From positions 992,001 through 1,056,000 of the forward strand of contig JAGVVL010000013.1 of NCBI GenBank assembly GCA_018287875.1: 64,000 nt of DNA, given 5' to 3'. Below the pieces are notes generated by a model. The model was given only the letters and a program-made list of their open reading frames with translations. It did no database searches and was not told the DNA's origin. Positions 1 to 45,160 of the stretch are shown here, one piece after another. Numbering within the stretch: the stretch's first letter is position 1; the number at the start of each line of letters is the position of its first letter. The position numbers were made by a program, and so were the translations under genes. The DNA comes from Nigrospora sphaerica (lineage: Eukaryota > Ascomycota > Sordariomycetes > Amphisphaeriales > Apiosporaceae).

Positions 1-297
1 TTTCCAGGCTGTGCGGACTAGGTCCGTTAGCAACCGTAAGGCTGTTTCCGTGGAGCGGCCTTTCCGGTTGCCCATCTGTTCGTCCGGGAGCAGCCCGTTT
101 TCCTCCGCAAAGCTGGCTAGCCGTTGCGCCAGCAGGCTCTCGATCACCTTCCCCATGGTGTTAAGTAGCGCGATAGGTCTCCATCCGCCGGCTTGGTGGT
201 ACTCGTTTGGCTGCTTTCCTGGTTTCCGGAGGATAACGGTCACTGCTTTGCGGAACGCTGTTGGATAGTATCCTATACGCCAGCATGCTTCCGCTAG
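1..297 (-). pseudogene. LINE ORF2 reverse transcriptase fragment
   Basis: The minus strand encodes part of the LINE reverse transcriptase, from the segment with AEACWRIGYYP to the start of the DEQMGNRKGRSTETA block. It matches ORF2 at 32620-32910 nearly residue for residue. The fragment has no start of its own because the LINE was truncated here and joined to the module at 297/298. Confidence 0.85.
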
Positions 298-1427: not shown

Positions 1428-1820
1428 GTGTTCTCCGATAAGCATTTGTTAGTGGCACTCTACTTGAGCGAAAGTGCTATTGAAGCCTGGAAACCTTGGC
1501 AGTGCGCAGTCTAACTAGCGTCAATGGCCGCCCAGATCCACGGATTCTTACAGGGTGTAGGGGTTGTGGGAGCGAAGGAAATTTATCTCCCATCGTTCGC
1601 CTTGGCGCTATCTATGTGCACATCGAATCTGCAGGCGACAAGTGTCAGCGGCAAGTATCGCATTGTCAGATGGCTTAACCTCTCCACTGGCTTGGATCTT
1701 ACGCAAAGCGAGGCTCCTCTCTCGGAACTTGTTCACTTTTCCCCTCTTCCATCAGTTAATCGTTCGTCGTGATAGCTTCAATCTAGCACACACGTAACTA
1801 AAAGAATTTGTCCTTGCATT
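1428..1820. other. No gene recognised
   Basis: This stretch lies between two LINE insertions. Only short overlapping frames are present (60-82 codons) and none looks like a known family. It is probably host intergenic DNA. Confidence 0.5.
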
Positions 1821-16147: not shown

Positions 16148-16341
16148 TTTTATTATTATTATTATTGTTCTTACACCTAGCGACCTATCTAGGCCATGAG
16201 GACCCCCTGCGTATCTTAGCCTAGGAAAACCGTTCCGGGCTGACGTCCGGCCGGGTGAAAAACCTAGGTTCTGCTGCGTCGCACCGCTTCTATCTGCTCT
16301 TTGACCTGCCATACCGAGATCGGGCTCAGCGCGCCCGCTTC

Positions 16342-19300
16342 CTAGCTGATGAGTTGATTCGCCAGCTGGAACATGTCCAGCCTGCCCGAGCGGAGTAGCC
16401 ATCTCGCGATAATTCCTGCTTTTCTGGGGGTGTCGAGCATCCTATCCGTGTCTACCGGTCCTCCTAGAGCTTAGACGAGATGCTCTCGTCTTTCTCTTTC
16501 CCGTGGGCAAAAAACGAGGATATGCCGGACGGTCTCCCTACCCTGACCGCAGTCACACCATGAGCTGTCGAAGCCTGGTACCCTGCGCTTAAAAAGGAAG
16601 TCTCGCAGCCTAATCTTGCCGGTCCTCGCTTGGACGAGGATCGAGCTCTCTACCTTGTGAAGTCCTTTATGGAGCTTAAGGACGTGCTTATCTGGCGGCA
16701 TCTTGGTTACTGCCGGGGCTCGCGCTGTTCGGTTTTTCTGCGTTTGTTGCCATCTTTAGAGCCAGTCTCTCTCCTTAGCCTTGTGTGCTGAGTCTCCAGC
16801 TAGCTATTCGTTTAGCCACCTCTTGCGATTGGGAGCGTCGGGGCCTTTCGGTCTGCGCCGGCGAGTCGGTCTTGTTAGAATCTATCTGGCTGCGTTATCG
16901 CATCTTACTTGGATAAGCGAGGCGATGCGTGGCTGTTGGAGCCTTTCTTCCGAAGCCGCCACTCTTTTATTAAGCCATATATCTAAGGGCGATACGTAGG
17001 CTTCTGTTTCTAGTGTCGTGGCTGCTGTCGCCTTGAAGGCCCCCGTGACCTTATAGAGGCACTCAGTCTGAATGTCGCTTAGTGTTTTAGCCCTGCTTTT
17101 CGGAATATAATAGTGCCATTCTAAGGCTCCGTAGCCTATAGCAGACCGTACGACGGCTGTGTAGACTTAGCGGGCTCGCTGGAGGGACGCGCCCTATATT
17201 AAGCCGGCTATCTGGTCTAAGGCACAGACCTGCGTCGCCATCTTCTTCGATATCGACTGGATATGGACGTCCTAGCGGAGACGTCTATCCACCTGGATGC
17301 CAAGGACGCGGCAGGAGTCTTCTGGTTCGATTTCGTGCCCTTTTAAGGCTATCTTCGTGTCCGGACCTTTCCGTCTTCGAGAGAAGTGGACTAGGTGATA
17401 TTTCTGGACTGCGAAGGTTATACCGTGGCTGACTGCCTATTCTTTACAGATCCTATAAGCGGCTTCCAGCTGCTTACAGGTCTGCTCGGGGTTTAAACCG
17501 AAGCCCACGAGGTTTATATCGTCTACGAAGGCTATAGTAGCTATCCCTAGTATAGCGCGGAGAGCCTTATAGAGACCGGCTATATAGAGGCAGAAGAGGA
17601 TAGGTGATAAAAGTGAGCCTTGCGGGATACCTGCTGGGACTAGGATCTCGTCCGATTCCTGGCTATCGAAGAATAGCGTAGTAGACCGGTTAAATAGGAA
17701 GCTTCAGATCCAGCTGATAGTCTATATAGGGATCCTTAGCGCTGGCAAGTTAGCGAGGAGCCTTCTATAGTCGACAGAGTCGAAAGCGCCCGAAATATCC
17801 AGTGATAGAAGGGTTACTACACCTCCATGTTTCCAGGCTATGCGGACTAGGTCTGTTAGCAACTGTAGGGCTGTTTCCGTGGAGCGGCCTTTCCGGTTGC
17901 CCATCTGTTCGTCCGGGAGCAGTCCGTTCTCTTCAGTAAAGCTAGCTAGCCGTTGCGCTAGTAGGCTCTCGATCGCTTTCCCTATAATGTTAAGCAGCGT
18001 AATAGGTCTCCATCCGCCAGCTTGGTGATACTCGTTTGGCTGCTTTCCTGGCTTCCGGAGGATAACGGTGACTGCTTTCCGGAACGCTCTTAGATAGTAT
18101 CCTATATGCCAGCACGCTTCCGCTAGGGAGGCTAAGGCTTGGAAGAGGGGCTTTCCTAAGCGTTTAAGGAATCCGTTTAGAAGCTGGTCTGGTCTAGGTG
18201 CCTTCCACTGGCCTGCCTTAGTAAGGACGTCTTGGACTTGTTCTGCTGTCACCTTTCTGTCCATATCGAGAGGCGCTGCGAGCCGGTTCGTTATTCGGAA
18301 GCCGGTGTATGTAGCCTTAAGGAGGGGATAGAACCTCTCTTGGAAGGCCTCTGTTTTCTCCTTATGGGTCGTTGCTTCGCCACGCGGTGTGTAGAGTGTA
18401 GGGACTGCCGGGGGTAACGGCGGTGCTGCTCCTTCCGTTCTTGCCCATCTCGCGATATTCCAGACGCCAGCTGGCTGGCTAGACGCCTCGTGGAGCATAT
18501 GTCTCCAGGACGCCGTCTTAGCTTCTCGGATTGCTTTCTTCTTTAAGAGAGTTGACTGCCGGAGGGCTCACTAAGCTACGTCTATCCTGTCGGAAAGCTA
18601 TATCCGCTGGGCTCTTCGCTCCTTCTTTATAGCTTCTTCTATCTCGCGGTTCCACTAGGCTTTGCCTCTCCCTTTAAAGTAGTGGAGGGGGGCAACTAAG
18701 TCGGCTATCCGAGTTAGCTCCTTAGTTAACGTTTTAGTGTAGCTATCGATTTCTTCTGGTGTCTCGAGTCGCCCTGGCTATAGTAGGTGTGCTGCTTCTG
18801 CCTTCGCCTAGTTATAGTCAGCTGTTTTCCAGCTACGTCGTGGCCTATCTTAGCGGTCTATATAGGGTCTAGCCACGCGTATCACCTGGGGGAGGTGATC
18901 GGACCCAGCAAATGGGGCATACCTGTCGTAGGCAGCTCGGAGATCGTCCGTGACCCACGCTAAGTCGATCGTGGAGTCCGTGCACCCTCTTCGAGTCTAT
19001 ATCGGTGTTCCAGGGGGTGTGATCAGCTGGAGTCTCCAGGATTCTGCTAGCTGGAGCAGCTTATTAGCTGCCCTATGGGGTCGGACGTTGTGTCCTCCCT
19101 AAACAGGGTAGTGGACGTTAAAGTCTCCTACAAGGATTGTTCGTTGTAGCTGGGGTTCGGTATAGAGGGCTTCGATAGCTAGCAGGTCCGATCTGCTAGT
19201 GGACCTAAGGGGAGGCGAGTATATGTAGATAACCGTTATAGGACCGTCTAGTAGTTGGATTGTGATACGACACTTGTCTGGCTACGCCTTGTATATCCAC

Positions 19301-19530
19301 TGCACTGGGGTGTACTTCTTATTAATATAGATGCATACCCTACCTCCCTCGATCGAGTAAAGTAGGTAGTACAGAGAGGATCTCGGGTAGTAGGTAGTCG
19401 GCATATATAGGTTTCGCTAGGGCTCTTAGATAGCTAGGACGTTGTACTCTTCGGAGATAGCATCAACTGCCGGGATCTGTGCTTTCTTACTTTTTTGCGT
19501 GTTCCAGTGTAGGATCTTTAGCGCTGTCAT
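16342..19530 (-). pseudogene. LINE1 ORF2 (endonuclease-reverse transcriptase)
   Basis: The frame is 3,189 nt, identical in length to ORF2 of copy B, with no indel. It holds an APE-like endonuclease (near 19500-18900) and a reverse transcriptase whose active site reads A-F-V-D-D (near 17530). The C-terminal zinc motif lies near 16540. Many in-frame TAG codons destroy it. The segment at 17722-18498 shares several derived residues (for example APRPDQLLNGF) with chimera C, so the two copies have a common mutated ancestor or exchanged sequence. Confidence 0.85.
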
Positions 19531-20885
19531 GGTCGAGCGTAGATGCTGTTTAGTGTTAACTCTGGTGTTTCGATGTCTATGTCGTCTATCTCTTCGTGGG
19601 TTCTGCTGCGGGCTCTGCCAGTGCTTCTAGTACAGTAGCTAGTTACTCGACGCTTCCGCGGCTGTACTGTCTGCTAGTCTTCAGCTGTTGGCTTAGGGGG
19701 TTCTTGCGAGGGCAGTGCGAATCCCTTCGGTCTCGTGATATAAGCAGCCTTAGCGATCTGGACCTGCTCCTGGCGGACTGGACACTCCTTAGACCACGTA
19801 ATATGTGGTCCTCGGTATACTGGATAATAGTACCGGCTTTTATTCTCGGCTTCTAGGTATTCTTTATCGTTATACTTTGTTAAAGAGCAGAGCCCACACT
19901 TATATGCGTGGCGGCAGACACAGGCGATATATCCATAACGGTAGCAGTGGTAACATTGCTTAAGCTGTGCTCCTTCGGCGAAGGGCTCGTATAGATAGTA
20001 GCTATACTGCTATATAAGGCCGTCGCGGTATAGCTGTTCCGCTTGTTGGACTGTGGGTACTGCAATTTATAGGGCCGTGATCTTCTTAGACGAGGTCTTG
20101 GCGTTACGAGGGAGCTTGGCCTCTAGGACGTCGATAGGGCCGCCGGGCTGGTTCCGAAGCTGAATTCCTAGCTGACTTAGGTTCGTTTCTGCGGCTTCCT
20201 TATTGATGCCATGGGCCACCACCAGGATCTTTCTCTTCTGGATAGAGGCGTTCTCTCCGAAGGCCTCGGTAGTCCAGGCCCGGTCGGTTTCTAGTTGTCG
20301 CTTCTCTTCTGCTGTCTTACAGGTGATAGCGTAGTCTCCGCTAGGAAGCTTCCGTGCGGCTACTACTGTTTCTCTGCCTGTTGCTGCGTTGACTTTCCGT
20401 ACGATCTCTTCGTAAGTGCGGCCTTCGGTTCCCGCGGCCTTAACCGTGACCTCCCGTTCGTGTCGAGGAGGCAGTGTCTTGGCTACCTGAGGAGCCCTGG
20501 GTGTAGGAGCAGCGGTAGGGGCAACAGCTGCTGCAACGTATGTCTTAGGAGCTTTGATTTCCTTGTGGATAGCCTAGAGCGCGTTCTCGATGTTATCGAT
20601 ACGTCTTTCGATACTGGTCTGACTGTCTGGTTCCTTAGCTGCCGCCTCTAAGACCGGGATGGCGGCTTGTACAGCTGCGACCAAGGTCGCAACGTCGAAA
20701 TCACCGGCTAGGAAGCGTTTAAAGCTGTTTACGGTGCCGCGAATAGCTTCTGGACTGCGTCCAGGTGCGGTGTTGCTGCTTGGCGATGGCGTTCGCGAGT
20801 CTGGAGGCGACGGCTCAGGTGGTGGGGCGGCCTGTTGGCGGCTCCCACCACCCGCGTTTTGCCTCGCTGGTGGTGGATCGACCAT
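19527..20885 (-). pseudogene. LINE1 ORF1 (nucleic-acid-binding Gag-like)
   Basis: The frame starts MVDPPPARQNAGGGSRQQ and has the same 1,359-nt length as the open ORF1 at 37938-39296. It would encode a 452-residue RNA-binding protein with CCHC zinc knuckles near its C-terminus, but several TAG codons interrupt it. The final TGA overlaps the ORF2 ATG (ATGA, 19527-19530). Confidence 0.8.
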
Positions 20886-21013
20886 TTCTAGGGTAAATGA
20901 GGCCCTAGGAACAGTTTCCGGGCTATCCGGTAGGTTTTAGAGTCGTGGTTGTGAAGTTATCGCCGTGTGGAGTCGATTTCGAAAAGTTTCCCCTACATCC
21001 CTGTTGTGGGGTA

Positions 21014-29557: not shown

Positions 29558-30687
29558 GGCTGGCGAAGTCGGACTCTACAGCCTCCCCGCGGCGCCGGCT
29601 GGAAATCTTCCTGGGTCAATTGACTGAGGAAGAGCCGATGTAGAGACGCATTCTGCACGAAAGTGCAGCGAGGCGCTATTGCTGCGTCGCTATGTCGCTG
29701 CTCTGGAGTTTTGCTGATACGATCTGTGATGCGGGATTTTCGGGCGTCGCACGACCGAAAACTTTTCGCCCCCGCCAAACGTAGCAAGCAGCCTCGAAAA
29801 TCGACACCACGCGACGCCGAATCGACGACAAATCGGCCGCGCAGCGAAGGCCCTCGTCTCTATAGAGGGATTTGGGTAGAAAAACCATCCGACGTCGACT
29901 CGGTTCTCGAAGCGACGATAGGACACCCTCGGCCCTACCGAGCTCTAAGACGGCTTGCAGCGAACAGCCGCGAGGGCATCGAACGAATACTTAAGTGGAC
30001 GTGCGTACGGAGTAATGGAAGTTGTTAAGAACACGGGGACGGAGTCGTTAAGGCAATAGTGGCTACGGCTGGCCGCCCGTGTCGCCCTTTAAGGTGACAG
30101 CGCACCGCTCCGGAGACGAACATATGGTGGATCAGGGCAGGTTAGTCGAGGCCTTACAGGGTACTATGCCGGCGTGGTGGTACCCCTTACCGAAGGCCTA
30201 CGGCAAGACATGGTCGGCTCGCCGGCAGAGATGGCGGCGAGCAACGGGAAGCCGGTCTAGGGCTCGCCACCCTAGGACACCGGTGGGCCGTAGTATAGCA
30301 CGACGACCGCGGGACCGGCAGAAGAACAGGGTAGCCCCTACGTCCCCTACTCGCACTAGGGTCGACTAAAGATGGAACCGGTTCGAGGACTTGCCGTGGA
30401 AGGGGATGAACAGCTGGATTGGGCCAGCCCAGGGACCTGGAGACAAGGATGAGACGGACTGCCTTCGATTGTGCCAAAGGGCATCTTCTCTGTCGGAGTG
30501 TCGCTAGCGTAGGTGCTATCCTAGGAGGCTGCAGGTCGAGGAGGTCGTGCTATGGCTCGAGAGGACGGATGCGCATGTCGGTGGTCCTAGAGAGGGATAT
30601 GCCCTTGCGGGCTGCTTAAGGTGCAAACCTTCTATTCCCCCCCTTTCTATAGAAAGCGCAGAGAACTTGACCCGGGGAATAGGAGGC
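29558..30687 (+). repeat. 1,130-bp LINE-associated module, copy B
   Basis: The boundaries are the same as in copies A and C (GGCTGGCGAAG ... GGAATAGGAGGC). The 121-codon frame 29663-30028 is open. A second frame from about 30079 runs to a TAA at 30367-30369 that is CAG in copy C. Differences from copy C are almost all transitions, for example TGACTGAGG versus TGACTAAGG. Confidence 0.87.
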
Positions 30688-31216
30688 CACGGTTCAACAA
30701 GCGGAACAGCTATGTCGAGACGGCCTTATTTGGCAGTATGGCTACTATCCATGCGAGCCCTTCGCTGAAGGAGCACAGCTTAAGCAATGCTACCACTGTT
30801 ACCGTTATGGACATATCGCCCGTGTCTGCCGCCACGCACGCAGGTGTGGGCTCTGCTCTTCAACAAAGCATGACGATAAAGAATGCCCAGAAGCCGAGAA
30901 TAAGAGCCGGTACTGCTGTCCAGCATGCCGAGGACCACACACTGCGTGGTCTAAGGAGTGTCCAGTCCGCCAGGAGCAGGTCCAGATCGCTAAGGCTGCT
31001 TATGTCACGAGGCCGAAGGGATTCGCCCTGCCCTCGCAAGAACCCCCTAAGCCAGCTGCCGAAGGCTGGCAGACAGTACAGCCGCGGAAACGTCGAGCAA
31101 CCAGCTGCCGTACTAGAAGCACTGGCAGAGCCCGCAGCAGAACCCACGAAGAGACAGACAACATGGACGTCGAAACACCGGAGTTAACACTGAACAGCAT
31201 CCACGCTCGACCATGA
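30688..31216 (+). pseudogene. LINE ORF1 3' part (chimera B)
   Basis: The 5'-truncated ORF1 starts at the segment before the zinc knuckles and keeps the CCHC-type array CYHCYRYGHIARVC-like, CGLCSSTKH and CCPACRGPH. It ends with TGA at 31214-31216 overlapping the ORF2 ATG. Without a 5' part it cannot make ORF1p. Confidence 0.8.
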
Positions 31217-34200
31217 CAGCGCTAAAGATCCTACACTGGAACACGCAAAAAAGCAAGAAAGCACAGATCCCGGCAGTCGATGCCATCTCCGAAGAGTACG
31301 ACGTCCTAGCTATCCAAGAGCCCTGGCGAAACCCACACCTGCCGACCACTTACTGCCCGAGATCCTCTCCATACTACCTTCTCTATGCCGCCGAGGGAGG
31401 CAGAGCTTGCATCTACATTAATAAGAAGCACCCCCCAGTGTAGTGGACTTATAAAGCGCAATCAGATAAGTGCAACATCACGATCCAGTTGCCAGATGGT
31501 CCTATAACAGTTATCTGCGTATACTCGCCTCCTCCTAGATCGATTAGCAGATCAGACCTGCCAGTTATCGAAGCCCTCCTCACCAGTCCCCAGCTAGGAC
31601 GAACAGTCCTCGTAGGAGACTTTAACGTCCACCACCCTGTCTGGGGAGGACACAACGTCCGACCTCATAAGGCAGCCGATAAGCTACTCCAGCTAGCAGA
31701 ATCCTGGAGACTCCAGCTTATCACTCCCCCTGGAACACCGACATGGACTCGAAGAGGGTGCATAGACTCCACGATCGACCTAGCGTGGGCCACGGACGAT
31801 CTCCGAGCTGCCTACAACGGGTACGCCCCATATGCTGGATCCGATCACCTCCCCCAGGTGATACGCGTGGCTGGACCTCAAAACGACCCCCAGAACAAGC
31901 CACGGCGCAGCTGGAAAACAGCTGACTATAACCAAGTGAAGGCCGAGGCGACACACCTTCCGCAGCTAGGGCTACTCGAGACACCGGGGGAAATCGATAG
32001 ATACACCGAAACGTTAACTAAGGAGCTAACTCGGATAGCCGACCTAGTTGCCCCCCTCCGCCACTCTAAGGGGAGAGGCAAGGCATAGTGGAACCACGAA
32101 ACAAAAGAAGCTATAGAGGAGGAGAGACGAGCCCAGCGAACATGGCTATCCGACAGGACAGACGCAGCCTGGCGAGCTCTTCGGCAAGCATCCCTTGCGA
32201 AAAAGAAAACGATCCGCACTGCAAAGACAGCGACCTGGAGAAACATGCTTCACGAGGCCTCTAGCCAGCCAGCTGGCGTCTGGAACATCGCGAGATGGGC
32301 CAGAACCGAAGGAGCCGCACCGCCGCTACCTCCAGCCGTCCCCACGCTTCACACACCGCGAGGCGAAGCAACGACCTATAAGGAGAAAACGGAGGCCTTC
32401 CGGGAGAGGTTTTACCCTCTCCCTAAGGCCATGTATACCGGCTTCCGTATAACAAACCGGCTCGCAGCGCCTCTCGACATCGACGGCGAGGTGACAGCGG
32501 AGCAGGTCCAAGACGTCTTAAGCAAGGCAGGCCAGTGGAAAGCACCCGGACCAGACCAGCTTCCGAACGGATTCCTTAAGCGCTTAGGAAAGCCCCTCTT
32601 CCAGGCCTTAGCCTCCCTAGCGGAAGCATGCTGGCGTATAGGATACTATCCAACAGCGTTCCGCAAAGCAGTGACCGTTATCCTCCGGAAACCAGGAAAG
32701 CAGCCAAACGAGTACCACCAAGCCGGCGGATGGAGACCTATCGCACTACTTAACACCATAGGGAAGGTGATCGAGAGCCTGCTGGCGCAACGGCTAGCCA
32801 GCTTTACGGAAGAAAACGGGCTGCTCCCAGACGAACAGATGGGCAACCGGAAAGGCCGCTCCACGGAAACAGCCTTACGGTTGCTAACGGACTTAGTCCG
32901 CACAGCCTGGAAACATGGAGGTGCAGCAACCCTTCTATCGCTGGATATCTCAGGCGCTTTCGACTCCGTCGACCATGGAAGGCTCCTCGCTAACCTGCGA
33001 GCGCTGAGGGTCCCTATATAGACTATTAGCTGGATCCGAAGCTTCTTATCTAACCGGTCCACTACGCTGTTCTTCGATGGCCAGGAATCGGACGAGATCC
33101 CAGTCCTAGCAGGCGTCCCGCAGGGCTCACCCCTATCGCCTATCCTCTTCTGCCTTTATACAGCCGGTCTCTACAAGGCCCTCCGCGCTGTACCAGGGAT
33201 AGCCACTATAGCCTTCGCAGACGACACAAACCTCGTGGGCTTCGGCTTAAACCCAGAGCAGACCTGCGAGCGGCTAGAAGCTGCTCATAGGGTCTGCAAA
33301 GAATGGGCAGTCAGCCACGGCATGACCTTTGCAGTCCAGAAATATCACCTAGTCCACTTCTCTCGAAGACGGAAAGGTCCGGACACAAAGATAGCCTTAG
33401 AAGGCCACGAAATCGAACCAGAAGACTCCTGCCGCGTCCTTGGCATCCAGGTGGATAGACGTCTCCGCTGGGACGTCCATATCCAGTCGATATCGAAGAA
33501 GATGGCGACGCAGGTCTACGCTCTAAACCGGATAGCCGGCTCGACGTGGGGCGCATCTCTCCAACGAGCCCGCCAAGTCTATATAGCTGTCGTATGGTCT
33601 GCGATAGGCTATGGAGCTTCAGAGTGGCACCGCCAGATCTCGAAAAATCGAGCCAAGGCACTTAACGACGTCTAGATAGAGTGCCTCCGAAAGGTCACAG
33701 GAGCTTTCAAAGCCACGGCCACCACAGTACTAGAAACGGAAGCTTACGTGTCCCCCTTAGACACGTGGCTCAACAGAAGGGTGGCGGCATCGAAAGAGAG
33801 GCTCCAATAGCCGCGTATCGCATCACTCATCCAAGCGAGATGCGAAAACGCAGCTAGATGGATCCTAACAAGACCAACTCGCCGGCGCAGACCGAAAGGC
33901 CCCGACGCTCCCGATCGTAAGAGGTGGCTAGACGAATGGCTAGCTGGAGACTCAGCATATAAGGCTGAGGAGAGAGACTGGCTTCAAAGATAGCAACAAG
34001 CGCAGCAAAATCGAACAACACGAACACCGGCAGCAACTAAAATGCCGCCAGACAAGCACGTCCTCAAGCTCTATAAGGGACTCTATAAAGCCGAGAGCTC
34101 CATCCTCGTCCAAGCGAGGACTGGCAAGATCGGGCTGCGAGACTTCCTTTTTAAGCGTAGGGTCCCAGGCTTCGACAGCCCCTAGTGCGCCTGCGGTCAG

Positions 34201-34401
34201 GGCAGGGAGACCGTCCGGCATATCCTCGCTTTCTGCCCACGGGAAAGAGAAAGACGAGAGCATCTCGTCCAAGCTCTAGGAGGACCGATAGACACGGACA
34301 GGATGCTCGACACCCTAGGAAAAGCAGGAATCATCGCAAGATGGCTACTCCGCTCGGGAAGGCTGGACATGTTCCAGCTAGCAAATTAACTTATCAGCTA
34401 G
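31213..34401 (+). pseudogene. LINE ORF2 (chimera B), only point stops
   Basis: The frame is full length, 3,189 nt, without any indel. The endonuclease shows GDFNVHHPVWGG (near 31620) and GSDHLP (near 31840). The reverse transcriptase keeps an intact active site AFADDTNLVGFG (near 33210). A C-terminal zinc motif lies near 34190. There is no RNase H domain that I can see. About eight in-frame stops, nearly all TAG at Trp codons (for example 31441, 32086 and 33019), inactivate it. The product would have nicked target DNA and copied LINE RNA. Confidence 0.88.
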
Positions 34402-34754
34402 GAAGCGGGCGCGCTAAGCCCGATCTCGGTATGGCAGGTCAAAAAGTAAATAGAAGCGGTACGACGCAGCGGAACCTAGGTTTTTCACCCGGCCGGACGT
34501 CAGCCCGGAACGGTTTTCCTAGGCTAAGATGCGTAGGGGGTCCTCATGGCCTTGATAGGTCGCTAGGTGTAAGAATAATAATAATACACCTAGCGACCTA
34601 TTTAGGCCATGAGGACCCCCTGCGCATCTTAGCCTAGGAAAACCGTTCCGGGCTAACGTCCGGCCGGGTGAAAAACCTAGGTTCCGCTGCGTCGCACCGC
34701 ACTTGTCTACTCTCTAGCCTGCCATACCGAGATCGGGCTCAGCGTGCCCGCTTC

Positions 34755-37700
34755 CTAGCTGATAAGCTGATTCGCAAGCTGGAACATGCCTAGCCTTCCC
34801 GAGCGGAGTAGCCATCTTGCGATAATCCCAGCTTTTCCTGGCGTGTCTAGCATCCTGTCTGTGTCGATCGGCTCTCCTAGAGCTTGGACGAGATGCTCTC
34901 GTCTTTCTCTCTCCCTTGGGCAGAAAACGAGGATATGTCGGACGGTCTCCCTGCCCTGACCGCAGACGCACCATGGGCTGTCGAAGCCTGGAACCTTGCG
35001 CTTGAAAAGGAAGTCTCGCAGCCCAATCTTGCCAGTCCTCGCTTGGACGAGGATGGAGCTCTCTGCCTTATGGAGTCCCCTATGGAGCTTAAGGACGTGC
35101 TTGTCTGGCGGCATCTTAGTTGCTGCCGGGGCTCGTGCTATTCGATTTTGCTGCGTTTGTTGCCATCTCTGAAGCCAGTCTCTCTCCTCAGCCTTATGTG
35201 CTGAGTCTCCAGCTAGCCATTCGTCTAGCCACCTCTTACGATTAGGAGCGTCGGGGCCTTTCGGTCTACGCCGGCGAGTCGGTCTTGTTAGGATCCATCT
35301 AGCTGCGCTATCACATCTCGCTTGGATGAGTGATGCGATACGCGGCTGTTGGAGCCTCTCTTCCGATGCCGCCACCCTTCTGTTGAGCCACGTGTCTAAG
35401 GGGACACGTAGGCTTCCGTTTCTAGCACTGCGGCAGCCGTGGCTTTGAAAGCTCCTGTGACCTTTCGGAGGCACTCTGTTTGGACGTCGTTGAGTGCCTT
35501 GGCTCTGTTTTTCGAGATCTGGCGGTGCTACTCTGAAGCTCCATAACCTATCGCAGACCGTACGACCGCTGTATAGACTTGGCGGGCTCGCTGGAGAGAC
35601 GCGCCCCATGTCGAGCCGGCTATCCGGTCTAGGGCATAGACTTGCGTCGCCATCTTCTTCGATATTGACTGGATATGTACGTCCCAGCGGAGACGTCTAT
35701 CCACCTGGATGCCAAGGATGCGGCAGGAGTCTTCTGGTTCGATTTCGTGACCTTCTAAGGCTATCTTCGTGTCCGGACCTTTCCGTCTTCGAGAGAAGTA
35801 GACTAGGTGATATTTCTGGACTGCGAAGGTCATGCCGTGGCTAACTGCCCATTCTTTACAGATCCTGTGAGCGGCCTCCAGCCGCTCGCAGGTCTGCTCG
35901 GGGTCTAAGCCGAAGCCCACGAGGTTCGTGTTGTCTACGAAGGCTATAGTAGCTATCCCTGGTATAGCGCGGAGAGCCTTATAGAGACCGGCTGTATAGA
36001 GGCAGAAGAGGATAGGCGATAGGGGTGAGCCCTGCGGGACGCCTGCCGGGACTGGGATCTCGTCCGATTCTTGGCCGTCGAAGAATAGCGTGGTGGACCG
36101 GTTAGATAGGAAGCTTCGGATCCAGCTGATAGTCCATATAGGGACCCTTAGCGCTCGCAGGTTAGCGAGAAGCCTTCCATGGTCGACCGAGTCGAAAGCG
36201 CCCGAAATATCCAGCGATAGAAGAGTTGCTGCGCCTCCATGTTTCCAGGCTGTGCGGACTAGGTCCGTTAGCAACCTCAAGGCCGTTTCTGTGGAGCGGC
36301 CTTTCCGGTTGCCCATCTGTTCGTCCGGGAGCAGTCCGTTCTCTTCGGCAAAGCTAGCTAGCCGTTGCGCTAGTAGGCTCTCGATCGCTTTCCTATAGTG
36401 TTGAGCAGCGCAATAGGTCTCCATCCGCCGGCTTGGTGATACTCGTTTGGCTGCTTTCCTGGCTTCCGGAGGATAACGGTGACTGCTTTCCGGAACGCTC
36501 TTGGATAGTATCCTATATGCCAGCACGCTTCCGCTAGGGAGGCCAAGGCCTGGAAGAGGGGCTTTCCTAGGCGTTTAAGGAATCCGTTCGGAAGCTGGTC
36601 TGGTCCAGGTGCCTTCCACTGGCCTGCCTTAGTAAGGATGTCTTGGACTTGTTCTGCTGTCACCTTGCTGTCCATATCGAGGGGCGCTGCGAGCCGGTTT
36701 GTTATTTAGAAGCCGTTCGGCCTAGCCTTAAGGAGAGGGTAAAATCTCTCGCGGAAGGCCTCTGTTTTCTCCTTATGGGTCGTTGCTTCGCCACACGGTA
36801 TGTGAAGAGTAGGGACTGCTGGGGGTAACGGCGGCGCCGCTCCTTCTATTCTAGCCCATCTCGTAATATTCCAGACGCCAGCTGGCTGGCTAGAAGCCTC
36901 GTGGAGCATATGTCTCCAGGTTGCCGTCTTTGCTTCGCGGATTGCCTTCTTTTTAAGGAGGGATGACTGCCGGAGGGCTCGCCAGGCTGCGTCCGTCCGG
37001 TCGGAAAGCCATGTTCGCTGGGCTCGTCTCTCCTCCTCTATAGCTCTTTCCGTGTCGTGGTTCCACCAAGCCTTGCCTCTCCCCTTAGAGTGGCGGAGGG
37101 GGGCAACTAGGTCGGCTATCCGAGTTAGCTCCTTAGTTAACGTCTCGGTGTAGCTATCGATTTCTTCTGGTATCTCGAGTCGCCTTAGCTGTGGTAGGTG
37201 TGCCGCCTCTGCCTTCGCTTGGTCGTAGTCAGCTGTTTTCCAGCTGCGTCGTGGTCTGTCTTGGCGGTCTATATGAGGTCCAGCCACGCGTATCACCTGA
37301 GGGAGGTGATCGGATCCTGCGTACGGTGCGTATCCGTCATAGGCGACCCGGAGGTCGTCCGTGGCCCAGGCTAGGTCGATTGTAGAGTCTATGCACCCTC
37401 TTCGAGTCCATGTTGGTGTTCCAGGGGGGGTGATCAGCTGGAGTCTCCAGTGTTCTGCTAGCTGGAGTAACTTGTTAGCTGCATTATGGGGTCGGACGTT
37501 GTATCCTCCCCAGACAGGGTGGTGGACGTTAAAGTCTCCCACGAGGACTGTTCGTCTTAGCTGGGGTTCGGCATGGAGGGCTTCGATAGCTGGCAGGTCT
37601 AGTCTGCTGATAGATCCAGGAGGAGGCGAGTACACGCAGATGACTGTTATAGGCCCGTCTGGCAGCTAGATCGTGATGTCACACCTATCTGGCTGCGCCT

Positions 37701-37941
37701 CGTATGTCCACTACGCTGGGGAGTACTTCTTATTAATGTAAATGCATGCTCTGCCTCCCTTAGCAGCGTATAGGAGGTAGTATGGAGAGGATCTCGGGCA
37801 GTAGGTGGTCGGCATATGTGGGTTTCTCCACGGCTCTTGGATGGCTAGGACGTCGTATTCTTCGTGGATAGCGTCGACTACCGGTATCTGTGCTTTCTTG
37901 CTTTTCTGCGTGTTCCAGTGTAGGATCCTTAGCGCTGTCAT
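34755..37941 (-). pseudogene. LINE2 ORF2 (endonuclease-reverse transcriptase)
   Basis: The frame is 3,187 nt, two short of the family length. The two single-base deletions are visible near 36395 (GGGAAAG region) and near 35400 (one C lost in a C run). The few stop codons include TAG near 37675-37710, TAG near 36707 and TAG at 35527. The endonuclease motifs GDFNVHHPVWGG and GSDHLP are present. The reverse transcriptase active site is changed to A-F-V-D-N (second Asp lost). The zinc-binding C-terminus is WCVCGQGRETVRHILVFC. Confidence 0.87.
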
Positions 37942-39296
37942 GGTCGAGCGTGGATGCTATCCAGTGTTGACTCCGGCGTTTCGATGTCCATGTCGTCTGT
38001 CTCTTCGTGGGCTCTGCTGCGGGCTCTGCCAGTGCTTCTAGTACGGCAGCTGGTTGCTCGACGCTTCCGCGGCTGTACTGTCTGCCAGTCCTCGGTTGTT
38101 GGCTTAGGGGGTTCTTGTGAGGGCAGTGCGAATCCCTTCGGTCTCGTGACATAAGCAGCCTTAGCGATCTGGACCTGCTCCTGGCGGACGAGACACTCCT
38201 TAGACCACGCAGTGTGTGGTCCTCGGCATGCTGGACAGCAATATCGGCTCTGATTCTCCGTTTCCGGGCATTCTTTTTCCTCGTGTTTAGTCGAGGAGCA
38301 GAGCCCGCATCGTCGTGCATGGCGGCAGACTCGGGCAATGTGTCCATATCGATAGCAGCGGTAACACTGCTTAAGCTGCGCTCCTTCAGCGAAAGGCTCG
38401 CATGGATAATAGCCATACTGCCAGATAAGGCCGTCTCGGCATAGTTGTTCTGCTTGTTGGACCGTGGCGACTGCGATATATAAAGTTGTGACCTTCCTAG
38501 ACGACGTCTTGGCGTTGCGAGGGAGCTTCGCTTCTAGGACATCGATGGGGCCGCTAGGCTGGTTTCGGAGTTGGGCTCCTAGCTGCCCCTGGTTCACCTC
38601 TATGGCTTCCTTGTTGATACCGTGGGCCACTACTAGGATCTTTCTCTTCTGGATGGAGGCGTTCTCTCCGAAGGCCTCGGCGGTCCAGTCTAGGTCGGCT
38701 TCTAGGGCTTGTTTCTCTGCCGCTGTCTTACATGTGATAGCGTAGTCTCCGCTAGGGAGCTTGCGTGTTGCTACTGCTGCCTCTCTCCCTGCGGCGGCGT
38801 TGACCTTGCGAACGATCTCTGCGTAGGTGCGTCCTTCTGTCTCTGTGGCCTTGACGGTGATCTCTCGTTCCTGACGAGGAGGAAGCGCCTTAGCTATCTG
38901 AGGGGCTCTAGGTGAGGGAGCGGCGGTTATGGCGGTGGCAGCAGCAGCGTATGTCTTAGGGGCCTTGATATCCTTATGGATAGCCTGAAGCGTGTTCTCG
39001 ATGGCATCGATGCGTCTCTCGATGCTAGTTTGGCTATCTGGTTCCTTAGCTGCCGCCTCTAGGACCGGGATGGCGGCTTGTACGGCTGCGACCAAAGTCG
39101 CAACGTCGGAATCACCAGCTAAGAAGCGTCTGAGGCTGTTTACGGTGCTGCGAATGGCTTCTGGACTGCGTCCGGGTGCCGTGTTGCTGCTTGGCGATGG
39201 TGTTCTTGAGTCCGGAGGCGACGGCTCGGGGGGTGGGGCGGGCCTATGGCGGCTCCCACCACCCGCGCTTTGCCTCGAGGGTGGTGAATCGACCAT
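37938..39296 (-). CDS. LINE ORF1 protein, open reading frame intact
   Basis: The frame encodes 452 residues from MVDSPPSRQSAGGGSRHRP to SIHARP with no stop. It is the only intact retrotransposon ORF in the window. The N-terminal third is Pro/Ser-rich. A helical, possibly coiled-coil part (about residues 60-110) precedes a central RNA-binding-like region. Zinc knuckles follow: C-x2-C-x4-H-x4-C (CYRCYRYGHIARVC), a second CGLCSSTKHEEKEC and a third CCPACRGPHTAW. The protein would coat LINE RNA. Its TGA overlaps the ORF2 ATG as ATGA at 37938-37941, suggesting coupled re-initiation. Confidence 0.85.
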   Translation of the reverse strand: MVDSPPSRQSAGGGSRHRPAPPPEPSPPDSRTPSPSSNTAPGRSPEAIRSTVNSLRRFLAGDSDVATLVAAVQAAIPVLEAAAKEPDSQTSIERRIDAIENTLQAIHKDIKAPKTYAAAATAITAAPSPRAPQIAKALPPRQEREITVKATETEGRTYAEIVRKVNAAAGREAAVATRKLPSGDYAITCKTAAEKQALEADLDWTAEAFGENASIQKRKILVVAHGINKEAIEVNQGQLGAQLRNQPSGPIDVLEAKLPRNAKTSSRKVTTLYIAVATVQQAEQLCRDGLIWQYGYYPCEPFAEGAQLKQCYRCYRYGHIARVCRHARRCGLCSSTKHEEKECPETENQSRYCCPACRGPHTAWSKECLVRQEQVQIAKAAYVTRPKGFALPSQEPPKPTTEDWQTVQPRKRRATSCRTRSTGRARSRAHEETDDMDIETPESTLDSIHARP

Positions 39297-39409
39297 TTCT
39301 AGGCTAAATGGAGCCCTAGGAACGGTTTCCGGGCTATCCGGTAGCTTATAGAGTCGTGGTTGTGAAGTTATCGCTGTGTGGGGTCGGTTTCGAAAAAGTT
39401 TTTTTTTTT

Positions 39410-39457
39410 GGTCGCTAGGTGTAAGAATAATAATAATAATAATAATACCCCACAACA
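39410..39457 (+). repeat. Residual LINE tail plus target sequence
   Basis: GGTCGCTAGGTGTAAG followed by (AATA)-like repeats is the 3' end of the LINE whose body lies left of LINE2. It is followed by CCCCACAACA (39448-39457). The same string AATAATACCCCACAACA occurs at 45144-45160 and its last 12 bases occur inverted at 21002-21013. Confidence 0.8.
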
Positions 39458-40587
39458 GGCTGGCGAAGTCGGACTCTACAGCCTCCCCGCGGCGCCGGCT
39501 GGAAATCTTCCTGGGTCAATTGACTAAGGAAGAGCCGATGTAGAGACGCATTCTGCACGAAAGTGCAGCGAGGCGCTATTGCTGCGTCGCTATGTCGCTG
39601 CTCTGGAGTTTTACTGATACGATCTGTGATGCGGGATTTTCGGGCGTCGCACGACCGAAAACTTTTCGCCCCCGCCAAACGTAGCAAGCAGCCTCGAAAA
39701 TCGACACCACACGACGCCGAATCGACGACAAATCGACCGCGCAGCGAAGGCCCTCGTCTCTATAGAGGGATTTGGGTAGAAAAACCATCCGACGTCGACT
39801 CGGTTCTTGAAGCGACGATAGGACACCCTTGGCCCTGCCGAGCTCTGAGACGGCTTGCAGCGAACAGCCGCGAGGGCATCGAACGAATACTTAAGTGGAC
39901 GTACGTACGGAGTAATGGAAGTTGTTAAGAACATGGGGACGGAGTCGTTAAGGCAATAGTGGCTACGGCTAGCCGCCCGTGTCGCCCTTTAAGGTGATAG
40001 CGCACCGCTCCGGAGACGAACATATGGTGGATCAGGGCAGGTTAGTCGAGGCCTTACGGGGTACTATGCCGGCGTGGTGGTACCCCCTACCGAAGGCCTA
40101 CGGTAAGACATAGTCGGCTCGCCGGCAGAGATGGCGGCGAGCAACGGGAAGCCGGTCCAGGGCTCGCCACCCTAGGACACCGGTGGGCCGTAGCATAGCA
40201 CGACGACCGCGGGACCGGCAGAAGAACAGGGTAGCCCCTACATCCCCTACTCGCACTAGGGTCGACCAGAGATGGAACCGGTTCGAGGACTTGCCGTGGA
40301 AGGGGATGAACAGCTGGATTAGGCCAGCCCAGGGACCTGGAGACAAGGATGAGACGGGCTGCCTTCGATTGTGCCAAAGGGCATCTTCTCTGTCGGAGTG
40401 TCGCTGGCGCAGGTGCTATTCTGGGAGGCTGCAGGTCGAGGAGGTCGTGCTATGGCTCGAGAGGACGGATGCGCATGTCGGTGGTCCTAGAGAGGGATAT
40501 GCCCTTGCGGGCTGCTTAAGGTGCAAACCTTCTATTCCCCCCCTTTCTATAGAAAGCGCAGAGAACTTGACCCGGGGAATAGGAGGC
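39458..40587 (+). repeat. 1,130-bp LINE-associated module, copy C
   Basis: Same ends and length as copies A and B. The 121-codon frame (39563-39928) is open. In the second frame, an uninterrupted 135-codon stretch runs from 40183 into the junction (ending ENLTRGIGG, then TAG at the first LINE bases). Upstream TAG codons in this frame replace Trp codons of copy B. Confidence 0.88.
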
Positions 40588-41771
40588 TAGCTGGTGAAGT
40601 CAACATTGCGGCCTTGGCTGTAGCAGTTCAAGCCGCCATTCCGGTCCTAGAGACGGCGGCCAAGCAATCGGACAACCAGTCCAGCATCGAAAGACGCATC
40701 AATGCTATCGAAAACACGCTGCAAGCTATCCATAAGGAAATCAAAGCTCCTAAGACATACGCTACAGCCGCTGTTGCCCCTATCGCCGCTCCTACACCTA
40801 GGGCTCCCCAGGTAGCTAAGACACTGCCTCCCCGACACGAACGGGAGGTCACGGTTAAGGCTGCGGGAACTGAAGGCCGCACCTACGAAGAGATCGTACG
40901 GAAAATTAATGCAGCAACAGGCAGAGAAACAGCCGTAGCCGCACGGAAGCTTCCTAGCGGAGACTACGCTATTACCTGCAAGACAGCAGAAGAGAAGCGA
41001 CAGCTGGAAACCGACCGGGCCTGGACGACCGAGGCCTTCGGAGAGAACGCTTCGGTCCAGAAAAGAAAGATCCTGGTGGTAGCCCATGGCGTTAACAAAG
41101 AAGCTGTAGAGGCGAACCAAGGGCAGCTCACAGCTCAGCTTCGAAACCAGCCAGGAGGCCCTATCGAGGTCCTCGAGGTGAAGCTCCCTCGCAGCACTAA
41201 GACCGCCAGCAGGAAAGTCACGGTCCTATACATCGCTGTCGCCACGATCCAGCAAGCCGAACAGCTATGCCGAGACGGCCTGATCTGGCAATATGGCTAC
41301 TATCCATGCGAGCCTTTCGCCGAAGGAGCGCAGCTCAAGCAATGCTACCACTGTTACCGTTATGGACACATCGCCCGTGTCTGCCGCTACGCACGTAGGT
41401 GCGGGCTCTGCTCTTCAACAAAGCATGACGACAAAGAATGCCTAGAAGCCGAAAACAAGAGCCGGTACTGCTATCCAGCATGCCGAGGACCACACGCTGC
41501 GTGGTCCAAGGAGTGTCCAGTCCGCCAGGAATAGGTCCAGATCGCCAAGACTGCTTATGTCACGAGACCGAAGAGATTCGCACTGCCCTCGCAGGAACCC
41601 CATAAGCTAATAGCCGAGGACTGGCAGACAGTACAGCCGCGGAAGCGTCGAGCAACCAGCTGCCGCACTAGAAGCACTGGCAGAGCCCGTAGCAGAACCC
41701 ACGAAGAGACAGACGACATGGACATCGAATCACCGGAGTCAACACTGAACAGCATCCACGCTCGACCATAA
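40588..41771 (+). pseudogene. LINE ORF1, 5'-truncated (chimera C)
   Basis: ORF1 begins at AGEVNIAALAVAVQAA and continues through the helical region and zinc knuckles (CYHCYRYGHIARVC). One TAG stands at 41532. The end codon is TAA (41769-41771) and the overlapping ORF2 ATG has become ATA. Confidence 0.82.
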
Positions 41772-44700
41772 CAGCGCTAAGGATCCTACACTGGAACACG
41801 CAGAAGAGCAAGAAAGCACAGATCCCGGCAGTCGATGCTATCTCCGAAGAGTATAACGTCCTGGCTATCCAAGAGCCCTGGCGGAACCCACACATGCCGA
41901 CCACCTACTGCCCGAGATCTTCTCCGTACTACCTACTTTACGCGATCGAGGGAGGTAGGGCATGCATCTACATCAACAAGAAGTACACCCCAGCGCAGTG
42001 GATATACGAGGCGCTGCCAGATAGGTGTCGTATCACAATCCAACTACCAGACGGTCCCATAACGGTTGTCTGCATATACTCGCCTCCCCCTGGGTCCACC
42101 AGCAAATCGGACCTGCCCGCTATCGAAGCCCTCTATACCGAACCCCAGCCAAGACGAACAGTCCTTGTGGGAGACTTCAATGTCCACCACCCCGTATGGG
42201 GAGGATACAACGTCCGACCCCATAAGGCAGCTGACAAGCTGCTCCAGCTAGCAGAATACTGGAGACTCCAGCTGATCACACCCCTTGGAACACCGATATG
42301 GACTCGAAGAGGGTGCACGGACTCCACGATCGACTTAGCGTGGGTCACGGACGATCTCCGAGCTGCCTACGACGGGTATGCCCCATTTGCTGGGTCCGAT
42401 CACCTCCCCTAGGTGATACACGTGGCTGGACCCTATACAGACCGCTAAGATAGGCCACGACGCAGCTGGAAAACAGCTGACTATAACCAGGCGAAGGCAG
42501 AAGCAGCACACCTACCACAGCCAGGGCGACTCGAGACACCAGAAGAAATCGATAGCTACACTGAAACGTTAACTAAGGAGCTAACTCGGATAGCCGACTT
42601 AGTTGCCCCCCTCCGCTACTCTAAAGGGAGAGGCAAAGCCTGGTGGAACCGCGAGATAGAAGAAGCTATAAAGAAGGAGCGAAGAGCCCAGCGGATATAG
42701 CTTTCCGACAGGACAGATGTAGCTTAGCGAGCCCTCCGGTAGTCAACTCTCTTAAAGAAGAAAGCAATCCGAGAAGCCAAGATAGCGTCCTGGAGACATA
42801 TGCTCCACGAGGCGTCTAGCCAGCCAGCTGGCGTCTGGAATATCGCGAGATGGGCAAGAACGGAAGGAGCAGCACCGCCGTTACCCCCGGCAGTCCCTAC
42901 ACTCTACACACCGCGTGGCGAAGCAACGACCCATAAGGAGAAAACAGAGGCCTTCCAAGAGAGGTTCTATCCCCTCCTTAAGGCTACATACACCGGCTTC
43001 CGAATAACGAACCGGCTCGCAGCGCCTCTCGATATGGACAGAAAGGTGACAGCAGAACAAGTCCAAGACGTCCTTACTAAGGCAGGCCAGTGGAAGGCAC
43101 CTAGACCAGACCAGCTTCTAAACGGATTCCTTAAACGCTTAGGAAAGCCCTCTTCCAAGCCTTAGCCTCCCTAGCGGAAGCGTGCTGGCATATAGGATAC
43201 TATCTAAGAGCGTTCCGGAAAGCAGTCACCGTTATCCTCCGGAAGCCAGGAAAGCAGCCAAACGAGTATCACCAAGCTGGCGGATGGAGACCTATTACGC
43301 TGCTTAACATTATAGGGAAAGCGATCGAGAGCCTACTAGCGCAACGGCTAGCTAGCTTTACTGAAGAGAACGGACTGCTCCCGGACGAACAGATGGGCAA
43401 CCGGAAAGGCCGCTCCACGGAAACAGCCCTACAGTTGCTAACAGACCTAGTCCGCACAGCCTGGAAACATGGAGGCGTAGTAACCCTTTTATCGCTGGAT
43501 ATTTCGGGCGCTTTCGACTCTGTCGACTATAGAAGGCTCCTCGCTAACTTGCCAGCGCTAAGGATCCCTATATAGACTATCAGCTGGATCCGAAGCTTCC
43601 TATTTAACCGGTCTACTACGCTATTCTTCGATAGCCAGGAATCGGACGAGATCCTAGTCCCAGCAGGCATCCCGTAGGGCTCACCTTTATTACCTATCCT
43701 CTTCTGCCTCTATACAGCCGGTCTCTATAAGGCTCTCCGTGCTATACTAGGGATAGCTACTATAGCCTTCGCAGATAACACAAACCTCGTGGGCTTCGGT
43801 TTAAACCCCGAGCAGACCTGCAAGCGGCTGGAAGCCGCTTATAGGATCTATAAAGAATAGGCAGTCAGCTACGGTATAACCTTCGCAGTCCAGAAATATC
43901 ACCTAGTCCACTTCTCTCGAAGACGGAAAGGTCCAGACACGAAGATAGCCTTAGAAGGTCACGAAATCGAACCAGAAGACTCCTGCCGCGTCCTTGGCAT
44001 CCAGGTGGATAGACGTCTCCGCTGGGACGTCCATATCTAGTCGATATTAAAGAAGATGGCGATGTAAGTCTATGCTTTAGACCGGATAGCCGGCTCGATA
44101 TAGGGCGCGTCTCTCCAGCGAGCCCGCCAAGTCTATACAGCCGTTATACGGTCTGCGATAGGCTATGGAGCTTCAGAGTGGCACCGCCAGATCTCGAAAA
44201 ATAGAGCTAAGGCACTTAACGACGTCTAGATAGAGTGCCTCCGAAAGGTCACAGGAGCTTTCAAAGCCACGGCCACCGCAGTACTAGAAACGGAAGCTTA
44301 CGTGTCCCCCCTAAACACGTGGCTTAATAGAAGGGTGGCGGCATCGGAAGAGAGGCTCTAATAGCCGCATATCGCATCACTTATCTAAGCGAGATACGAT
44401 AGCGCAGCCAGATGGATCCTAATAAGACCGACTCGCTAGCGCAAACCGAAAGGCCCCGACGCTCCCGATTATAAAAGGTAGCTAAACAAATGGCTAGCTG
44501 GAGACTCAGTATATAAGGCTGAGGAGAGAGACTGGCTTTAAAGATGGCAACAAGCGTAGCAAAATCGAACAGCGCGAACCCCGGCAGCAACTAAGATACC
44601 GCTAGATAAGCACGTCTTTAAGCTTTATAAGGGACTCCATAAGGCCGAGAGCTCTATCCTTATCTAAGCGAGGGCTAGTAAGATTAGGCTGCGAGACTTC

Positions 44701-44955
44701 CTTTTTAAGCGTAGGGTCCCAGGCTTCGACAGCCCCTAGTGCGCCTGCGGTCAAGGCAGGGAGACGGTCTGGTATATCCTCGTTTTCTGCCCACGGGAAA
44801 GAGAAAGACGAGAGCATCTCGTCTAAGCTCTAGGAGGACCGATAAACACAGACAGGATACTCGACACCCTAAGAAAAGCAGGAATTATCGTAAGATGGCT
44901 GCTCCGCTCTGGAAGGCTGGACATGTTCCAGCTAGCGAATCAACTTATTAGCTAG
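41768..44955 (+). pseudogene. LINE ORF2 (chimera C), heavily damaged
   Basis: The frame is 3,188 nt, one base shorter than the family because of a deletion near 43148 (C run). The start codon is ATA and more than a dozen TAG codons occur. The reverse transcriptase active site reads A-F-A-D-N. Several changes are shared with LINE1 (17722-18498). Confidence 0.85.
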
Positions 44956-45160
44956 GAAGCGGGCGCGCTGAGCCCGATCTCGGTATGGCAGGTCAAAGAG
45001 TAGATAGAAGCGGTACGACGCAGCGGAACCTAGGTTTTTCACCCGGCCGGACGTTAGCCCGGAACGGTTTTCCTAGGCTAAGATGCGCAGGGGGTCCTCA
45101 TGGCCTAAATAGGTCGCTAGGTGTAAGAATAATAATAATAATAAATAATACCCCACAACA

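Follow-up and report, generated by a model that had tools for sequence, protein, structure and literature searches.

A 1.1-kb module with a predicted HDV-like ribozyme is fused, very probably by template switching, to 5'-truncated LINEs in a fungal relative of Apiospora

Chimeric LINEs in the window

The window, i.e. the whole stretch of 64,000 nucleotides that was analyzed (positions 992001-1056000 of one contig), contains three copies of a module (A, B and C), each joined at its 3' end to a 5'-truncated LINE (Table 1); the genome searched is the 51.6-Mb assembly of 33 contigs. According to the preliminary description of this DNA, the modules are exactly 1,130 bp long with identical ends, and the alignment bears this out: A, B and C align without gaps over all 1,130 bases with 97.6-98.1% identity, from the common 5' start GGCTGGCGAAG to the common 3' end GGGGAATAGGAGGC. 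The LINE parts belong, as had also been described, to one LINE (LINE1) entered at different points: R2873 in A (the start of the reverse transcriptase region), R944 in B (just before the zinc knuckles of ORF1) and R289 in C (early ORF1), with the placement in the ORFs judged by eye.

Table 1. Chimeras, reference copies of LINE1 and associated features, in window positions
Feature	Position	Strand	Evidence
Module A, 1,130 bp, class 1	298..1427	-	alignment
Module B, 1,130 bp, class 1, copy of the putative acceptor RNA	29558..30687	+	alignment, genome search
Module C, 1,130 bp, class 1	39458..40587	+	alignment
Predicted HDV-like ribozyme fold, module A	1340..1427	-	descriptor match
Predicted HDV-like ribozyme fold, module B	29558..29645	+	Rfam matches below cut-off, descriptor match, pair counts
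Predicted HDV-like ribozyme fold, module C	39458..39545	+	descriptor match
Predicted 3'-terminal hairpin of module B, 13-bp outer stem and unpaired C at 30687	30628..30687	+	folding
LINE1 part of chimera A, joined at R2873, extending left beyond the window (locus L014)	1..297	-	
LINE1 part of chimera B, 5'-truncated, joined at R944; tail interrupted by the LINE at 34586-39409	30688..34584	+	
LINE1 part of chimera C, 5'-truncated, joined at R289, TAA-repeat tail	40588..45143	+	
LINE1 copy R, with RVT_1 and Exo_endo_phos_2 domains and its own 5' end but no module; lies within the tail of LINE B; LINE1 reference	34586..39409	-	
LINE1 copy F, own 5' end, no module; second LINE1 reference	16150..20989	-	
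5' target-site duplication of chimera A, TATCGGAGAACAC when read along the element; its counterpart is in L014, beyond the window	1428..1440	-	
5' target-site duplication of chimera C, AATAATACCCCACAACA; first bases could also be TAA tail	39441..39457	+	
3' target-site duplication of chimera C	45144..45160	+	

Copy R lies tail-to-tail in the tail of LINE B and has on both sides an unusually long repeat of 29 bp (34558-34586 and 39410-39438). Elsewhere in the window, two long stretches (8139-12260 and 49139-53065) are ~74% identical to each other; the latter includes a fragment of a copia-like reverse transcriptase (51794-52579, judged by eye).

Copies of the module in the genome

The module does not occur by chance: the genome contains at least 42 matches to it (40 of 83 candidates scored). 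The module 3' end occurs, with up to three mismatches, in 52 places, of which 50 are in loci that were read (the other two have three mismatches); 49 are module ends and one (L065) is not a module. Together with five variant ends (L010, L049, L050, L051 and the second module of L023) and with L018, whose module lacks the last base (C), this gives 55 module 3' ends. The element that follows is LINE1 in 47 cases, LINE2 or the LINE2 5' region in five (L023, L028, L043, L044, L059), a second module in two and another partner in one (L048). The preliminary description had proposed a search for free modules: none of the 55 ends read is followed by plain flanking DNA, and no free-standing module gene was found, with partial copies present at L009, L031 and L067. 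A search with the middle of the module returned 62 candidates, and the 40 that were scored all fall at already known places (compared by eye).

The modules form two classes of about 1,130 and 1,132 bp, with 92-97% identity between them. L010, L050 and L051 have the same flank, which marks them as copies of one insertion, and L064 very likely duplicates L063. The 47 LINE1 joints therefore represent at most 44 insertions. Loci without a module 3' end (L042/L066, L031, L009, L067 and the second ribozyme family described below) were left out of the joint counts. In L042 and L066, which look like one duplicated insertion, module bases 1-441 are followed by ~34 unrelated bases and then by LINE1 at R27.

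The possibility that the module encodes a protein was considered and rejected. Its 99-aa ORF is intact in only 14 of 37 full modules, the variable sites are distributed as 25, 29 and 34 over the codon positions, and 61 changes are nonsynonymous and 29 synonymous. The module is more likely to be non-coding, since the ORF is often broken and the variable sites are spread over the codon positions.

LINE partners of the module

Both main partners are LINEs (non-LTR elements of the APE type), with reverse transcriptase and endonuclease domains (LINE1: RVT_1, 1.1e-33; Exo_endo_phos_2, 1.1e-16; LINE2: RVT_1, 1.5e-12; Exo_endo_phos_2, 2.1e-12). LINE1 ends with a tail of TAA repeats and has a 5' end of its own. 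Its 5' region has 198 matches in the genome, counted without reading the upstream sequence. At ten distinct loci with a match near this end, six distinct copies share a single 5' start but differ in their flanks and lack a module, and the other four (L017, L041 and the L042/L066 pair of duplicates) carry a module or module part joined at R27-R99.

These observations bear on the simplest alternative, in which a longer parent LINE normally carries the module at its 5' end and has given rise to the chimeras by internal deletions. Such deletions would also leave a fixed module followed by a variable LINE start, and two joints agree with it, as L044 joins at the start of the LINE2 5' region and L041 about 20 nt from the LINE1 5' end. 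However, LINE1 begins without a module at its own 5' end, so the module is not part of a longer LINE1, and the four module-joined loci near this end begin at R27-R99 rather than at the native end; for LINE1, the finding that the preliminary description had named as fatal to its own reading was thus not made. At least nine further copies of the LINE2 5' region share the same starting point, with no module match adjoining any of them (40 of 198 candidates scored), and the same module 3' end is found on at least two LINE families, with some modules in tandem. We therefore regard an origin of the chimeras by deletion as highly unlikely.

L044 was counted with LINE2 because nine other copies run from the start of its partner into LINE2. 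When the 820 bases from this start were used as a query, 27 of the 41 matches listed reached no further than about base 633, so the first ~614 bp may constitute a separate repeat, a copy of which adjoins the module of L059. That module may thus be interrupted rather than truncated. The partner in L048 (370 bp read) has nine matches in the genome including itself, only two of the others above 80% identity, and no reverse transcriptase or endonuclease domain match within the 370 bp; it is perhaps a third LINE.

Joints and site preference

The genome-wide map of LINE 5' junctions that the preliminary description had proposed places the 47 LINE1 joints on 35 distinct sites, with five further joints on the LINE2 side. 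Joints were placed by BLAST on the two reference copies, extrapolation never exceeding 2 nt, and the preceding base is that of the reference copy, not of the chimera. On these terms, C immediately precedes the joint in 43 of the 47 LINE1 cases if the closer reference is used and in 46 if either is accepted; L018 is the sole exception by both references, and its module is the one without the final C. After the joint, LINE1 starts with C in 43 cases and with T in four. Counted by distinct sites with the closest reference, C precedes the joint in 31 of 35 and CC spans it in 30 (33 by either reference). Given the composition of LINE1 (C 0.30, CC 0.085), the chance of such counts is 7e-13 for C and 1e-27 for CC if the sites are independent. 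The C at the joint can be assigned to neither side, so a one-base match between the cDNA end and the acceptor end is possible at nearly every joint.

One fixed module 3' end with many LINE starts would likewise be expected if the module were an exon of a long module-LINE transcript, spliced to many cryptic acceptors in the LINE before reverse transcription. Yet AG stands just 5' of the joint in none of the 47 cases by either reference, which rules out splicing to AG acceptors; moreover, no parent with a module and a full LINE was found, and tandem modules of different lineages would be left unexplained. The probability of splicing is, in our judgment, close to negligible.

Five LINE1 sites (289, 1006, 1571, 2873 and 4010) were used by modules of both classes. 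At sites 289 and 4010 the LINE parts are only 85-87% identical between users of different class, which indicates that the events were independent and that the same nucleotide was hit at least twice. On the LINE2 side, base 1 is joined by L023 and L043, both with class-2 modules, and the class-1 module of L028 is joined two bases away. Two loci contain two different modules in a row, as expected from two successive switches: in L047 a class-2 module leads into base 31 of a second module, of another lineage, and then into LINE1, and in L023 a class-1 module is joined to base 435 of a class-2 module, followed by LINE2.

Reuse of sites raises the question of whether only some of the joints are primary, the chimeras having subsequently spread as new masters. 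The LINE parts of L026/L055 and of L027/L056 are identical over about 220 bp at the same joint, and these chimeras may indeed have been re-copied. Further, eight of the 49 module 3' ends have no 5'-end match (the second module of L047 not counted), as in truncated copies left when copying stops inside the module; one of these modules starts at base 40 (L085, the only such start read), and the others could also be decayed or interrupted. Against a small number of fusions stand the 35 distinct LINE1 sites, each of which needs a fusion of its own, and the five sites reused by both module classes, including the two with diverged LINE parts. As a general account, re-mobilization thus appears very unlikely.

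Integration of the chimeras

Among 20 loci of 10 kb, the LINE1 tail was identified in 14 chimeras and no tail was found in six. Target-site duplications of 12-17 bp surround the whole chimera in 11 of these 14, including A and C, and abut base 1 of the module on one side and the end of the LINE tail on the other; the first bases of some of them may instead be part of the TAA tail, and that of L026 has 16 bp with one mismatch (13 exact). In a control, none of 182 wrong pairings scored above 7. The three chimeras in which no duplication was found are L011, L015 (B) and L024; the tail of B is disturbed by the nested LINE and by chimera C.

Predicted ends of the acceptor RNA

The first 88 bases of the module are predicted to form an HDV-like double pseudoknot that begins at base 1 (P1: 1-7/37-43; P2: 17-23/82-88; P3: 24-26/34-36; P4: 50-60/65-75). 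HDV-like ribozymes have a G-U pair at base 1 and a conserved C in J4/2. In the module, G1-U43 and C78 are present in 17 of 17 variants and C79 in at least 90%. The Rfam matches at the module start are all below the gathering scores (RF00094, score: 30.7 bits, cut-off: 50, E: 0.035; drz-agam-1, score: 22.6, cut-off: 37; HDV-F-prausnitzii, score: 20.1, cut-off: 44), the best of all HDV matches being 33.6 vs. 50 bits for RF00094 and the best E 0.035; a fourth match, to the snoRNA sR49, lies elsewhere in the module at chance level (E 1.5). When ten loci were scanned, six yielded a total of 15 matches at E<=10, every one to an HDV type and in these 5' regions, and the other four (L067, L068, L072, L074) yielded none. 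At gathering scores, only a 5S rRNA was reported for the window.

A structural descriptor of the ribozyme, run on both strands of the window, matched only at 29558(+), 39458(+) and 1427(-). In the 20 loci of 10 kb it matched 19 module starts and, once, the same ribozyme in a shifted register, and it found nothing in 20 first-order random single strands of 64 kb; as it was written after the module had been seen, these results demonstrate its specificity and not discovery. Standard pairs occupy 95.1% of the pair cells in the 17 variants, vs. 92.1% after shuffling and 41-50% after sliding. The covariation score is 0.121 vs. 0.075 for shuffled alignments (0 of 500 as high) and comes only from P4; the number of covarying pairs (3 vs. 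2.6 shuffled, 301/500) and of pair types (171/500) is not above that in shuffles. P1 contains a G-G mismatch in five of the 17 variants, all of the second family. Nucleotide diversity in the ribozyme (pi 0.021) is half that of the module body (0.044), with 8% of windows equally low, in a comparison that leaves out five of 41 modules. The 5' region of the module is predicted to be a self-cleaving ribozyme with the nested P1-P4 pseudoknot of the HDV type and with P1 at the cleavage site.

The same ribozyme is not confined to the module, as it also occurs in a second family (L068, L072-L075 and L077), which has only ~119 bases in common with the module, those of the ribozyme, at 81-83% identity. 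The pattern of the module 5' end has 66 matches in the genome, of which 14 begin with GGCGGGC or GGTGGGC, as this family does (six read). Here the predicted ribozyme lies inside a GC-rich repeat with a conserved upstream sequence of its own and with internal short tandem arrays. At C13:364088 and C14:5289 (apparently duplicates), the LINE1 5' region is found ~1,460 bp downstream of a member of this family.

At the opposite end, the last 65 bases of the module are predicted to fold into a hairpin with a 13-bp outer stem and one free C (z: -2.96 for class 1, -1.97 for class 2). The hairpin is no more conserved than the module body (pi 0.044 each), and we suggest that it may set the 3' end of the acceptor RNA. 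The acceptor looks like a discrete RNA, since base 1 coincides with the predicted start of the ribozyme and the 3' hairpin leaves a free C; it is likely a free RNA with a 5' end made by the ribozyme.

Proposed mechanism

Four lines of evidence, namely the map of joints, the duplicated target sites, the reuse of sites and the two loci with double modules, best support template switching from LINE RNA to a second RNA during target-primed reverse transcription of the LINE, as the preliminary description had proposed, and we consider this origin of the chimeras very probable. The LINE enzyme would start at the 3' end of the LINE RNA, often stop at a C-C site and continue on the 3' end of a discrete non-coding RNA of ~1,130 nt. 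The 5' end of this RNA would be cut by the HDV-like ribozyme (base 1 of the module being the predicted cleavage site), and its 3' end would be set by the 13-bp hairpin with a one-base overhang, a C to which the final G of the LINE cDNA could pair. Copying would then proceed to the 5' end of the module, and integration of the complete chimera would leave one target-site duplication.

More tentatively, we speculate that the module could be a selfish non-coding RNA that multiplies only as a second template. With its 5' end cut by a ribozyme and its 3' end given by a hairpin, it would be re-made from the fused copies, so that no master gene would be needed, and, available as an acceptor, it would be carried to new sites by whichever LINE enzyme jumps onto it. 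SINEs imitate the 3' end of a LINE; unlike them, the module would, if this possibility is true, be a parasite of template switching. We hold it to be less probable than its negation.

Comparison with MINE and other systems

Chimeras of WEIRD and MGL, the MINE elements of Magnaporthe, were reportedly described by Fudal in 2005, and the preliminary description anticipated a comparable system in another genus. The host is indeed a relative of Apiospora: its RPB2 fragment is 95% identical to that of Apiospora arundinis, 93% to Monosporascus, 92% to Pseudomassariella and 99% to an unnamed protein. Apiospora is assigned in paper titles to the Apiosporaceae of the Amphisphaeriales, and the host is therefore not Magnaporthe; a D-amino-acid-oxidase-like gene was uninformative about its identity.

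For MINE, the accessible text of PMC2104539 lists 31 WEIRD-MGL chimeras, 28 switch sites among 33 chimeric elements, six reused switch sites, one double switch, no solo WEIRD, the switch motif GCC*A/U and, as of 2007, no function for WEIRD. The present system shares with it a full-length non-coding RNA of ~1.1 kb on the 5' side and a 5'-truncated LINE with a variable start, joined directly and in the same orientation, on the 3' side, one target-site duplication around the whole chimera (here in 11 of 14), reused switch sites, a double-switch chimera and other donor types. As to solo copies of the acceptor, none of the 55 module 3' ends read here is free, with 40 of 62 candidates from the module's middle scored and partial copies present at L009, L031 and L067. 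The present system differs from MINE in its host, which is of another lineage, and in its motif: C precedes the joint in both systems, but the joint is C*C here, with CC at 30 of 35 distinct sites by the closest reference, and GCC*A/U there. It also differs in the acceptor, which here has a predicted HDV-like 5' fold and 3' hairpin, features of which no mention was found in that part of PMC2104539.

The comparison of the module with WEIRD/MINE that the preliminary description had called for was made with the published primers (taken from the accessible part of PMC3978060), by primers alone, so that a much diverged relative of WEIRD is possible. WEIRD125F, WEIRD967R and MNR2 have 7-9 mismatches of 20 with modules A, B and C, vs. 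7.7 on average for shuffled primers, and WEIRD125F has one three-mismatch match in the genome, the same number as its reversed control. The match at chance level and the host RPB2 rule out that the module is the WEIRD of Magnaporthe, and we classify the system as one that works like MINE but is not MINE, with a different acceptor and a different motif after the joint. In a search of mostly non-subscription literature, the Magnaporthe work was the only report of chimeric fungal LINEs of this kind. Contrary to the preliminary description, MINE is not the only described case of such fusion; mammalian chimeras have also been described (Gogvadze et al. 2007, PMC2104539). The preliminary description also lacked the 5' ribozyme fold, the 3' hairpin, the further LINE partners and the double modules. 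According to the accessible part of PMC2104539, the chimeric retrogenes of mammals, U6/L1 among them, likewise have a cellular RNA on the 5' side, a truncated LINE on the 3' side and a template-switch model; unlike these, which involve known small RNAs and joints described as random, the fusions found here involve a 1.1-kb RNA new to description and a strong site preference.

With respect to the ribozyme, R2 elements begin exactly at an HDV-like cleavage site, and L1Tc/ingi elements have an HDV-like ribozyme in a conserved 5' region (PMC3774820 and PMC4035085, as far as accessible). The module resembles R2 in beginning at the predicted cleavage site, but the ribozymes of R2 and L1Tc/ingi belong to the LINE or its relatives, whereas the one predicted here is on a separate RNA joined to LINEs, and the 5' end of LINE1 itself starts with another sequence. 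HDV variants are known from fungi, with 230 examples from 26 species and cleavage demonstrated for two of the examples (Li and Breaker 2017, PMC5640933, accessible part); they typically have a C-G pair at the cleavage site and a loop E, unlike the module, which is of the same HDV class but has a G-U pair and a plain P4. The word "transposon" is absent from the main text of PMC5640933, and in a search of mostly non-subscription literature we recognized no report of a ribozyme in a fungal retrotransposon.

Taken with MINE, these fusions indicate that the phenomenon is not peculiar to one fungus and one RNA, as an apparently unrelated RNA has been a habitual acceptor for at least two LINE families in another lineage. 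The predicted ends of the acceptor and the C-C preference offer a testable account of how the RNA and the jump site are chosen, and raise the question of whether WEIRD also begins with a ribozyme.

Other features of the assembly

One chimera is found with the same flank on contigs C3, C18 and C27, which are short or contain it close to an end, and a duplicated stretch is common to contigs C13 and C14. A bacterial rpoB gene is found on contig C19 (L071, C19:616954-618630; judged by eye from the translation), so that a bacterium, either associated with the fungus or a contaminant, is part of the assembly.
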